Shown here in pieces: positions 54,148 to 57,565 of a stretch of DNA of 64,000 bases. Made by a program: the position numbers and the translations under genes. Numbering within the stretch: position 1 is the stretch's first letter; each line of letters starts with the position of its first letter. The notes under the pieces were generated by a model. That model had not been told where the DNA came from and searched no databases. It worked only from the letters and a program-made list of their open reading frames with translations. Location: the NCBI GenBank assembly GCA_903875575.1, contig CAIQWJ010000028.1, positions 62,001 to 126,000 of the forward strand, given 5' to 3'. This stretch comes from an uncultured Acidobacteriia bacterium (GTDB lineage Bacteria > Acidobacteriota > Terriglobia > Bryobacterales > Bryobacteraceae).

Positions 54148-54224
54148 TGGTGGCGGCGCGCAGACTCGAACTGCGGACCTACGGATTATGAGACCGTCGC
54201 TCTAACCGGCTGAGCTACGCCGCC
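54148..54224 (-). tRNA. tRNA-Met (anticodon CAT), elongator type
   Basis: Minus strand. Acceptor GGCGGCG (54224-54218) pairs with CGCCGCC (54158-54152), the D-arm contains GCTCAGCCGGTTAGAGC, the anticodon loop is CTCATAA, the T-loop is TTCGAGT, and the 3' ACCA is encoded. A fully paired acceptor stem with a G-C first pair indicates the elongator rather than the initiator; a lysidine-modified Ile tRNA with the same CAT cannot be excluded by eye. 77 nt. Confidence 0.95.
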
Positions 54225-54388
54225 GAATACATCAGTTTAGCATTTGATCTTCTACAGACTACATCAGGCTACAGCGAGGCCCCGCAGACATATACACCGG
54301 TTCTGACTAACCCGCCGGGCATGTGGTTGGGCCTGCTCCCGGCGCAGTCGCGCCCGCTGTGGTGTTGACGTTGTGGGTCTGGTTGACA

Positions 54389-54853
54389 TCAGGAATTCAA
54401 CCCCTGGGCAACATTTGCGACGAGCCTCGAAATGCGGAAGAGAGCAGCCCAATCCTCAGGTGCCAGAGCGTCCCGCAATTGATCCTGGGCCTTCTTCCAT
54501 TCCGGCAACGCCAGAGCAAGCCGCTCACGTCCGGCGGGAGTCAGTTCAAACTGCCGTTTGCGGCGGTCGAGTCCAATGGAGGATACAATCCAACCATATC
54601 GTTCGAGGAGTCTGAGGTTGCGGGAAACAGTCGTTTTGTCCAAGCCGAGATGCCGCCCGAGTTCGGTCTCGCTACCGGAACCGAGCTTGCCGAGTGTCAT
54701 CAGCAATATGAATTGCGGTGCTTCGATTCCCGCACCTCGCAATCGACTGTCGTATAACTGCGTCAGCCCACGTGCCATCTGACGGGCCGTTGCGCAGGCG
54801 CAGGGGAGTTCGGCAAGCGTGGCCGCTCCCCGTTCTTTTGCAACGCGTGTCAC
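54389..54853 (-). CDS. MarR-family transcriptional regulator
   Basis: 154-residue winged-helix repressor-like protein. The GTG start at 54853 overlaps the stop of the upstream gene (GTGA). The recognition region 'ETELGRHLGLDKTTVSRNLR' and wing 'GLDRRKRQFELTPAGRERL' are typical MarR. A Cys pair near the N-terminus ('LPCACATARQM') could sense oxidants or metals. It is the second gene of a two-gene operon whose promoter (55308-55335) contains a near-perfect palindrome, so autoregulation is likely. Confidence 0.93.
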   Translation of the reverse strand: MTRVAKERGAATLAELPCACATARQMARGLTQLYDSRLRGAGIEAPQFILLMTLGKLGSGSETELGRHLGLDKTTVSRNLRLLERYGWIVSSIGLDRRKRQFELTPAGRERLALALPEWKKAQDQLRDALAPEDWAALFRISRLVANVAQGLNS

Positions 54854-55284
54854 TGCTTCTTTTCGCCTTGAGGCTGCCCCAGCGCTAAGCCTTCGCCCAG
54901 CAATACTCGCAGCGGCATCAGCGGGCGGAGAACCATGAAGTCCAGATTTGCAAAGTTCCCTTTTGAAAGCGGGAGGCCATCCATCAGCGACCTGGCTTCT
55001 TCGACGGTGGCGCAGTTCATGACGAAAACTACGCCCTTACCATCGCCTCTGGAATACCATTGTTGAATTTTGCCATCGAGATAAAGCCGAACCGTGGCGC
55101 GGACCTCTTCCGGCATGACCTTCGATAGCTGGGCCATATCTGCGTCGGGTTTCACGATGAGATTGACCAAAACGGCGGTAGCCGGCGAACTGGGCGGTGA
55201 CTGGGCAAATAAAGGTAATGAAAGCCCGCCGAGAAGAACTGCGAAGACCGGCATCCGGAAGATGTTGTTGGCGATAAAGCGCAT
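54850..55284 (-). CDS. exported small protein, muconolactone-isomerase/YCII-like
   Basis: 144 residues from ATG 55284 (AGGAGG 8 nt upstream), with signal peptide ending 'LSLPLFAQ'. The mature part ('AVLVNLIVKPDADMAQLSKV', 'GVVFVMNCATVEEARSLMDG', 'NFANLDFMVLRPLMPL') has the ferredoxin-like pattern of muconolactone delta-isomerase or YCII proteins. First gene of an operon with marR, so it is probably the regulated target. Its substrate or stress ligand is not known. Confidence 0.78.
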   Translation of the reverse strand: MRFIANNIFRMPVFAVLLGGLSLPLFAQSPPSSPATAVLVNLIVKPDADMAQLSKVMPEEVRATVRLYLDGKIQQWYSRGDGKGVVFVMNCATVEEARSLMDGLPLSKGNFANLDFMVLRPLMPLRVLLGEGLALGQPQGEKKQ

Positions 55285-55307
55285 TGGGAAAAGCCTCCTG
55301 CCCAGAA

Positions 55308-55335
55308 ATAGTAGCATATGCAACCAATTTGTCAA
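55308..55335 (-). promoter_or_regulatory. marR-operon promoter with palindromic operator
   Basis: On the minus strand, -35 TTGACA (55335-55330), 16-bp spacer and -10 TACTAT (55313-55308) form a near-consensus sigma70 promoter. Within it, the 14-bp near-palindrome GTAGCATATGCAAC (55311-55324; core GCATATGC) overlaps the -10 and spacer, a typical MarR operator position. The -35 also overlaps a plus-strand TTGTCA (55329-55334) suitably placed for rnpB. Confidence 0.75.
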
Positions 55336-55361
55336 CCATACGTTGCGTGCGACACTTGGAT

Positions 55362-55737
55362 CTGGCAGACGCCGGATGGATAGCCGCTCGCGCAAGTGAG
55401 AGGAAAGTCCGGTCTCCACAGGGCAACGTGCCGGCTAACGGCCGGGGGGGATCTCTCAAAGGGATCTTTACGGAAAGTACCACAGAAAATATACCGCCTG
55501 ATTCCTTTCGGGGGATTCGGTAAGGGCGAAAAGGTGCGGTAAGAGCGCACCGCGGACGGAGCAATTCGTCTGGCAGGGTAAACCCCACGCGGAGCAAGAC
55601 CAAATAGGGGAGGAGGAGCTGCCCGCTCCGTTATACTTCCGGGTAGGTCGCTTGAGCCACGCAGTAATGCGTGGCCTGGATGAATGGCTATCGCCCGCAA
55701 GGGTACAGAAACCGGCTTATAAGACGGCGTCTGCCAG
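55362..55737 (+). ncRNA. rnpB: RNase P RNA (bacterial class A)
   Basis: Catalytic RNA that removes tRNA 5' leaders. The ends pair as P1 (CTGGCAGACGCCG at 55362-55374 with CGGCGTCTGCCAG at 55725-55737). Universal core blocks are all visible: GAGGAAAGTCCGG with CACAGGGCAACGTGCC (CR I region), AAGGTGCGGTAAGAGCGCAC, GGGTAAACCCCACGCGGAGC, AGACCAAATAGGGG, and the terminal ACAGAAACCGGCTTAT. Length about 376 nt. The L15 GGU element that binds tRNA CCA reads GGA here (…GAGGAGCTGCCCG…), which deserves checking. A weak promoter TTGTCA-17-ACACTT would start transcription at about 55363. Confidence 0.96.
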
Positions 55738-55789: not shown

Positions 55790-57565
55790 ATGCGCTCTTT
55801 CAGGATTTCCCGTCCGATCTCAGCCACCCTGCTGGTTACATTCTTTTTTGCCTGCTGCCAGGCCGCGCAAAATACCGGCGATACCCCACCTGGGCTTCTT
55901 GTGCGCAACGAACCGGAATACTCTGCGGAGGCGGCGCGGGTGCGGGCGCAATCGATCGTAATGCTGAGTATCGTCATCGGTGAAGACGGCAAAGCACGCG
56001 ATGTCCGCGTGGCTAACGGCGCGGGCTTCGGACTTGATGAGAAGGCGATTGAAGCGGTGGAAACCTGGGTGTTCAAGCCTGCCACGAAAGACGGCAAGCC
56101 AGTTCCCTACCCCGCCAATATTGAAATGAACTTCAATATGCGCGTGCGGGATCCGGAAGACCACACCGGACAGTTGGTGCGGCTGAACTTCACGCTGCCA
56201 GCCAATGCCAACCGGCCTGAACTGATCGTCGGCAAGCTGCCGGGTAATCCCACAAGCGGCGGCGATCAGGCGCTGAAGTTTCATCTACAGGTGGATGCCC
56301 AGGGCGTGCCGAAAAATGTGACGGCCCTCAGTTCGACCGACAAAGTGTGGGAGAAACAGGTTCAGAAGGTAGTTCAGACGTGGCGTTTCCGCCCGGCGTC
56401 GCTGGATGGAAAGGACATTGCCGCCGAAGCCGACTTCGTGATGGAGCACACCGGCACGGATGAGGTGCCTCCGGTGCAGGTCACGCTTCAGGTTCCCGAA
56501 GAAGAGAAGACTCTGATTCGCCGCTTTCCCGCCCCGGTGCAGGTAGCCGGACTGATTTCGCGGAGCCACCATACAGCGACGCGTCTTGAGAACGGAACTG
56601 TTCTGATTGCCGGAGGTGCGGCGCACCGCAACGAATCAGGTCCGGGCGCGGTCGACTTCTATGCCTTGCAATCGTCGCAGATCTTCGACTGGGCGACGCG
56701 GCGAATCGTGAACACCAGCGAACTTCTGACAGCACGACAGAATCACACGGCCACGCTGCTGAAGGATGGAACGGTGCTGATCGCGGGCGGCCGGAGCGAT
56801 GCACCACTGGCAAGTGCGGAAATCTTCGATCCTTCCACCGGAAAATTCTCAACTACGGGGAACCTTCACGAAGCGCGTGATTCCCACTCTGCATCCCTGC
56901 TGCCTGATGGACGTGTTCTCATTTGCGGCGGAACTGGCGTGGGGAATAAGTACCTGGCTTCCGTGGAGATCTATGAGCCTCGTACGAAATCGTTTGTTTC
57001 AGCAGGCAACATGACGACGGCAAGATCCTCTTTCCAGGCGGTTGTACTGAAGAATGGAGTGCTGCTGCTGGGTGGCTTCGGCGCGGCTGGCGGGACAGCC
57101 GAGATCTACGATCCTGCGCGTGGCACGTTTCGCGCCGCGGGAAACCTGACGGCGGCACGATACGGATTTTCCGCCACGGCGTTACCCGATGGCAAGGTTC
57201 TGGTAGCCGGCGGAAGCTTTTCCTCCAGCACGGGCCCGGCGACGAACACGGCTGAGATCTACGATCCCACGACCGGCGCGTTCCATGCCACGGGAGCTCT
57301 GACTGAAGCACGGGAGTTTCACACCGCGATGGCGCTCGAAGACGGACGCGTGTTGATCTCTGGCGGCATTCCCGGTTCACCTGGAACTCCGATCGCTGTC
57401 ACCGAGGTTTATGATTCTGTAGCCGGGTCGTTCGCGGCTGGATCGACGCTGGCTGGCCGGCACACAGGACACACGAGCACACTCCTGCAGGATGGCGGCG
57501 TGCTGATCACTGGCAGCGGATTAGTGGGCCAGGGCACGAGCGCGGAGCTGATCCGGGTCAACTAA
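55790..57565 (+). CDS. exported TonB_C-domain/Kelch-repeat protein
   Basis: 591 residues from ATG 55790 (GGAAG upstream); earlier in-frame starts fall inside the RNase P RNA and are rejected. After the signal peptide ('LLVTFFFACCQAAQ') come two TonB C-terminal-like modules: about 25-120 ('SIVMLSIVIGEDGKARDVRV', 'ETWVFKPATKDGKPV') and about 150-230 ('LKFHLQVDAQGVPKNVTAL', 'QTWRFRPASLDGKDI'). The rest is about six Kelch repeats ('HTATLLKDGTVLIAGGRS', 'AEIFDPSTGKFSTTG'), forming a beta-propeller. It lacks the N-terminal membrane anchor and Pro-rich spacer of a real TonB, so it is more likely a secreted binding protein that borrowed the domain. Function unknown. Confidence 0.85.
   Translation: MRSFRISRPISATLLVTFFFACCQAAQNTGDTPPGLLVRNEPEYSAEAARVRAQSIVMLSIVIGEDGKARDVRVANGAGFGLDEKAIEAVETWVFKPATKDGKPVPYPANIEMNFNMRVRDPEDHTGQLVRLNFTLPANANRPELIVGKLPGNPTSGGDQALKFHLQVDAQGVPKNVTALSSTDKVWEKQVQKVVQTWRFRPASLDGKDIAAEADFVMEHTGTDEVPPVQVTLQVPEEEKTLIRRFPAPVQVAGLISRSHHTATRLENGTVLIAGGAAHRNESGPGAVDFYALQSSQIFDWATRRIVNTSELLTARQNHTATLLKDGTVLIAGGRSDAPLASAEIFDPSTGKFSTTGNLHEARDSHSASLLPDGRVLICGGTGVGNKYLASVEIYEPRTKSFVSAGNMTTARSSFQAVVLKNGVLLLGGFGAAGGTAEIYDPARGTFRAAGNLTAARYGFSATALPDGKVLVAGGSFSSSTGPATNTAEIYDPTTGAFHATGALTEAREFHTAMALEDGRVLISGGIPGSPGTPIAVTEVYDSVAGSFAAGSTLAGRHTGHTSTLLQDGGVLITGSGLVGQGTSAELIRVN

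Follow-up and report, generated by a model that had tools for sequence, protein, structure and literature searches.

A small MarR gene pair in one acidobacterium is read from a promoter that overlaps the promoter of the essential RNase P RNA gene rnpB, an arrangement that is real but local. It looks young, and it probably has little regulatory consequence: the gene pair is probably self-regulated, and any effect of MarR on RNase P RNA is probably mild, a by-product of the operon's position. The predicted MarR operator and the predicted rnpB -10 element are both well supported by comparison with relatives. A link from a MarR ligand to the level of RNase P RNA is possible and physically plausible, but the arrangement is seen in one genome and shows no sign of selection. 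The window, by which we mean the whole stretch of 64,000 nucleotides analysed, belongs to a draft genome of one strain (G000, 110 contigs), in which the junctions described here fall inside a 128-kb contig. Promoters were read with the E. coli consensus. The features on which the argument turns are as follows.

54151 to 54224, minus strand: tRNA gene, anticodon CAT (by eye), counterpart of the tRNA-Met that adjoins rnpB in half of the fetched genus relatives
54389 to 54853, minus strand: marR, 154 aa, second gene of the operon, its start overlapping the end of the first gene
54850 to 55284, minus strand: first gene of the operon, for a MIase-like protein of 144 aa whose start resembles a signal peptide (by eye)
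55294 to 55299, minus strand: Shine-Dalgarno sequence AGGAGG, 9 nt before the ATG at 55284-55282
55308 to 55313, minus strand: TACTAT, operon -10, preceded by TG (sequence and promoter scan)
55311 to 55324, no strand assigned: probable MarR operator GTAGCATATGCAAC, consensus GTTGCATATGCAAC (from its association with marR across loci)
55329 to 55334, plus strand: TTGTCA, -35-like hexamer of rnpB, 16 bp from the -10 (sequence)
55330 to 55335, minus strand: TTGACA, operon -35 (sequence and promoter scan)
55351 to 55356, plus strand: GACACT, rnpB -10, with TGC at 55348-55350 (extended -10)
55362 to 55737, plus strand: rnpB, class A RNase P RNA, from P1 to P1 (Rfam RF00010 match at 55368-55735)

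Divergent promoters of the marR pair and rnpB

The rnpB gene is full length and of class A, matching RF00010 with 289.7 bits over model positions 1-367 of 367, and its P1 is a perfect 12-bp helix (55362-55373 with 55726-55737). In the opposed operon the second gene carries the winged-helix domain PF01047 (34.1 bits, cut-off 24.6), and the resemblance of the first to muconolactone isomerase (PF02426) lies below the Pfam cut-off, with an E value of 0.038. The operon promoter, TTGACA-16-TACTAT, has a 16-bp spacer and agrees with the consensus at 10 of 12 positions, a grade of match expected 1.1 times by chance in the 3.5 kb scanned, so that taken alone it is at chance level; it is credible because it is placed just before AGGAGG and the ATG, and for that position only. 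A TTGAC-type hexamer with a -10 at 16-18 bp recurs in 7 of 14 relatives, which were hand-picked from 51, and TTGATC stands in an eighth; the same script found no recognisable -35/-10 pair in L102, L112, L115 or L122. From these elements we estimate that the operon transcript would start at about 55301 (minus strand) and the rnpB transcript at about 55362 (plus strand), some 61 bp apart.

The original prediction had the two divergent -35 hexamers overlapping by five bases, which both direct reading and a script find to be exact: TTGACA (minus, 55335-55330) and TTGTCA (plus, 55329-55334) share 55330-55334, the spacers are 16 bp on both strands, and 37 bp separate the -10 hexamers at 55308-55313 and 55351-55356. 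Overlap of the hexamers is automatic for any TTGACAA, because its reverse complement is TTGTCAA (the plus strand of the window holds four of the former and three of the latter), which argues that TTGTCA may be a coincidental mirror of the operon's TTGACAA with no part in rnpB initiation; the lack of a conserved -35 among 18 genus genomes, described below, points the same way. Spacing to a TGN-type -10, unlike the overlap, is not automatic. Counting both strands, the window has 308 TGNNANNNT sites, of which 9 (2.9%) have a -35 matching at five of six positions at 16-18 bp, so the correct 16-bp spacing of TTGTCA speaks against coincidence, as does the expectation that a good -35 would help whatever its origin. 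We give coincidence a substantial chance, if somewhat less than an even one.

The size of the RNA polymerase footprint is known, and with starts about 61 bp apart a polymerase on one promoter should cover the other. Two polymerases would thus likely not fit at once, and the two promoters should exclude each other. The operator ends 4 bp short of TTGTCA; relative to the estimated rnpB start it runs from about -51 to -38, with its centre at about -44.5, which puts it just above the -35 hexamer and off the core promoter.

The putative MarR operator

A MarR-type palindrome had also been proposed in the marR spacer, and GTAGCATATGCAAC is indeed there, a near-palindrome that pairs at 6 of 7 positions and has three bases in common with the minus-strand -10 hexamer. 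This palindrome is very probably the MarR operator, because a GTTGCATATGCAAC-like site goes with marR across loci. The search for relatives of the first gene covered 84,980 species with one genome apiece (31 loci) and 200 family genomes (28 of them with a match), and the 61 loci, less one without a tblastn hit and less repeats, gave 52 distinct loci. With a site called at 11 or more of 14 matches to GTTGCATATGCAAC, a score reached by 0.7% of shuffled upstream regions, one is present upstream in 21 of 22 distinct MIase-like loci with marR directly after and in 1 of 30 without marR (Fisher p 2e-12, with kinship among loci disregarded and the consensus drawn from genus loci among the 22). The window locus counts among the 21; the exception within the 22 is L153 (10/14) and that within the 30 is L143. 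Where marR is present at loci outside the 19 genus genomes, the site is found in 11 of 12.

Eight of the 14 hand-picked relatives have an operator that overlaps a -10, with a -35 of the TTGAC or TTGAT type at 16-18 bp from that -10. The -10 lies wholly within the operator in L105, L111, L116, L147, L150, L153 and L154, and overlaps its end in L108, like the window locus. By eye, L108, L111, L116, L147, L150 and L154 have two MarR-site-like stretches close together, of which one covers the promoter and the other is close to the start codon. The genome holds no second exact operator, GTWGCATATGCNAC being matched exactly at this locus only. A wider MarR regulon was considered and rejected, sites with at most one mismatch numbering 5 on both strands against 20 for a reversed control pattern.

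In eight of nine genus loci (7 of 8 genomes; L089-L092 and L094-L097, not L093) a start codon of the first gene falls, in frame, inside the operator. The mRNAs of these loci are possibly leaderless, with the operator doubling as the start of the reading frame. The window operator also holds an in-frame ATG (55317-55315), and a leaderless operon could be imagined to begin there, from a promoter further upstream that would overlap rnpB more deeply. At the place where such a promoter is needed, however, the script finds no good -35/-10 pair (the next best scores 6/12), whereas TACTAT, AGGAGG and the ATG at 55284 follow in order downstream of the in-frame ATG, and an AGGAG-type site with an ATG downstream of the operator is seen by eye in L105, L111 and L116 as well. 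We regard a leaderless start in the window as quite improbable, and retain the promoter TTGACA-16-TACTAT for the operon.

The rnpB promoter and its surroundings in the genus

Of 18 genus genomes, 17 have the pattern TGN-NANNNT, that of an extended -10, at 11-20 bp ahead of the Rfam start; in eight 10-bp control windows further upstream the counts are 0, 2, 0, 1, 0, 0, 1 and 0 of 18. Because this -10 recurs at the same place, the predicted rnpB promoter is very probably real and rnpB very probably starts there, as originally proposed, rather than at an unrelated promoter. For the analysis of columns the sequences were anchored on TG, A2 and T6 of the -10, which are conserved there by construction, the control windows being the independent check (G013, without TG, was anchored by hand, and G008, an rnpB fragment, was left out). 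Outside the anchors, A4 and C5 of the hexamer are each kept in 17/18, and a C five bases before the hexamer in 15/18.

The columns of the -35 region carry little information across the 18 genus genomes. The best match to TTGACA at spacers of 16-18 bp averages 2.56 of 6, against 2.33 (sd 0.21) for shuffles, of which 331 of 2000 reach the observed mean, and the mean without the window genome is 2.41. A match at five of six positions is found before rnpB in 1 of the 18, namely this genome. The strongest column, a G in 12/18 (0.43 bits) at 21 bp before the -10, corresponds to the third -35 base at 17-bp spacing and could be the remnant of a -35. The simplest reading of these alignments is that rnpB has an extended -10 promoter with an optional -35. 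Of the proposal that the two genes share -35 boxes, the overlap of the promoters stands, but TTGTCA is not a conserved element of rnpB.

In 8 of the 16 other genus genomes a tRNA-Met gene lies back to back with rnpB, 54-115 bp away. Of the remaining eight, one has the divergent tRNA-Met at 243 bp, three have it at 1.5-2.4 kb, and in four it is outside the fetched stretch. The tRNA-rnpB gap of the window is 1143 bp, mostly filled by the marR pair. Upstream neighbours of rnpB vary widely within the genus, closely opposed tRNA-Met genes among them; of the 16 other genus genomes fetched around rnpB, several of them as short stretches, 15 have thiO downstream of the gene and 6 have thiG upstream of it. 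In the 39 loci outside the genus, the 600 bp upstream of rnpB contain no tRNA as far as the stretches read extend. Downstream of rnpB in the window, 55790-57565 encodes a protein with a TonB C-terminal domain and then kelch repeats, a homologue of which also follows rnpB in G012 and G006.

A search by tblastn (E 1e-3) of 57 rnpB loci, most with about 0.5-2 kb of upstream sequence, matched either protein of the marR pair only in its own genome (57 of 61 genomes were readable, G008, G032 and G054 being fragments and G055 giving no match). Conversely, among loci L102-L162 the rnpB motif GAGGAAAGTC[CT] occurs only in the pair's own locus, the first gene having been placed by tblastn in 60 of the 61 loci, with flanks of up to 6 kb for 31 of them and 1.5 kb for the rest. 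On the tRNA side the motif AGTTTAGCATT, and at the rnpB start GCGACACTTGGATCTGGCA, match the relative G006; both outer promoter cores have therefore been preserved, and the join is probably somewhere from about 55336 to about 55347. In a tree built from 22 concatenated pairs, the window pair groups with two loci outside the 19 genus genomes (support 0.94, from short proteins, with a long branch and weak deeper nodes), a hint that the pair may have been acquired from outside. An insertion scar was also considered, as the marR pair lies between the two arms of a 12-bp inverted repeat (54377-54388 with 55330-55341, 92%). Given the size of the region, this is about what chance would produce, and we set the repeat aside because three further inverted repeats of 11-13 nt lie in the same 1.3 kb, besides the operator.

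In the six relatives measured, the -10 hexamers of tRNA-Met and rnpB are 15, 38, 41, 50, 57 and 78 bp apart, compared with 37 bp for marR and rnpB. Close opposition is thus tolerated and not special to MarR, because genus tRNA-Met promoters come about as near to rnpB (15, 38 and 41 bp). A divergent tRNA-Met within 250 bp of rnpB is seen in 9 of 18 genus genomes (L164, L165, L167, L170 and others), with the -10 hexamers just 15 bp apart in G009. In these genomes one promoter region may be common to RNase P RNA and a substrate of the enzyme.

A model of the locus and its known counterparts

The full model, which we hold to be probable, is that a two-gene operon for a MIase-like, probably exported protein and a MarR repressor came between tRNA-Met and rnpB, arriving there rather than being retained, with a promoter that points away from rnpB and a -35 box lying 16 bp upstream of the old -10 of that gene. 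MarR on the operator would cover much of the spacer and half of its own promoter's -10, and the operon would stay off until a ligand releases MarR. Transcription of rnpB would continue from its ancestral extended -10, to which TTGTCA would contribute as a helper at most. While the operon is repressed, which with MarR bound is the likely state, rnpB would have the DNA to itself; on induction, an opposed polymerase would exclude the rnpB polymerase part of the time, and initiation at rnpB may drop slightly. At E. coli bidirectional promoters, competition appears only at high activity in one direction (Warman et al. 2026; PMC12825309).

The original prediction went further and envisaged an unusual regulatory link, by which MarR binding or competition for polymerase could influence RNase P RNA. 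In a rival reading MarR or its ligand would usefully tune RNase P RNA, either because bound MarR hinders polymerase at the -35 or because induction diverts polymerase. The -35 bases are shared, the operator is centred near -44.5 from the estimated rnpB start, and bidirectional promoters of E. coli show steric competition under strong activation of one direction; yet in the same work none of the five promoters tested showed competition at basal activity (PMC12825309). The palindrome does go with the MarR lineage, but the arrangement is found in one genome only, the upstream DNA of rnpB differs in relatives, where its neighbours are many and various, and rnpB itself seems to have an extended -10 promoter that lacks a conserved -35. 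Useful tuning is in our judgement unlikely. That a horizontally mobile MarR module replaced the upstream half of the rnpB promoter, and so brought RNase P RNA synthesis and tRNA maturation in one species under a small-molecule-sensing repressor, we consider very unlikely.

The locus looks like a clean natural case in which a regulated module landed in the promoter of an essential RNA gene and the core promoter survived, and it offers a straightforward way to ask whether an overlap of divergent promoters has consequences for an always-on gene. If MarR did tune rnpB, a chemical signal would reach the capacity for tRNA processing by an unusual route. Titles and abstract openings in the literature searched, whose coverage mostly excludes subscription journals and thus leaves absence unproven, hold no MarR-rnpB link.

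Autoregulated MarR-family operons combine a winged-helix MarR, a palindromic site within the operon's own promoter and a small enzyme-like gene adjoining. The present operon is alike in all three, its palindromic operator lying inside its own promoter and being kept together with the regulator. It is unlike them in that the partner is MIase-like but below the Pfam cut-off, and in that the other side of the promoter is rnpB. The bidirectional promoters of E. coli have a common -10 element and starts mostly 18 (also 10 or 23) bp apart (Warman et al. 2026; PMC12825309). As in those promoters, the polymerases should exclude each other, and strong activity one way can repress the other; here, however, it is the -35 boxes that are shared, the estimated starts are about 61 bp apart, and there are two separate -10 hexamers instead of starts beside or within one common -10. 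Closest to hand is the divergent tRNA-Met/rnpB pair of the genus, which likewise sets an opposed promoter within a few tens of bp of rnpB; there the neighbour is a housekeeping tRNA, whereas at the marR locus it is a MarR operon.
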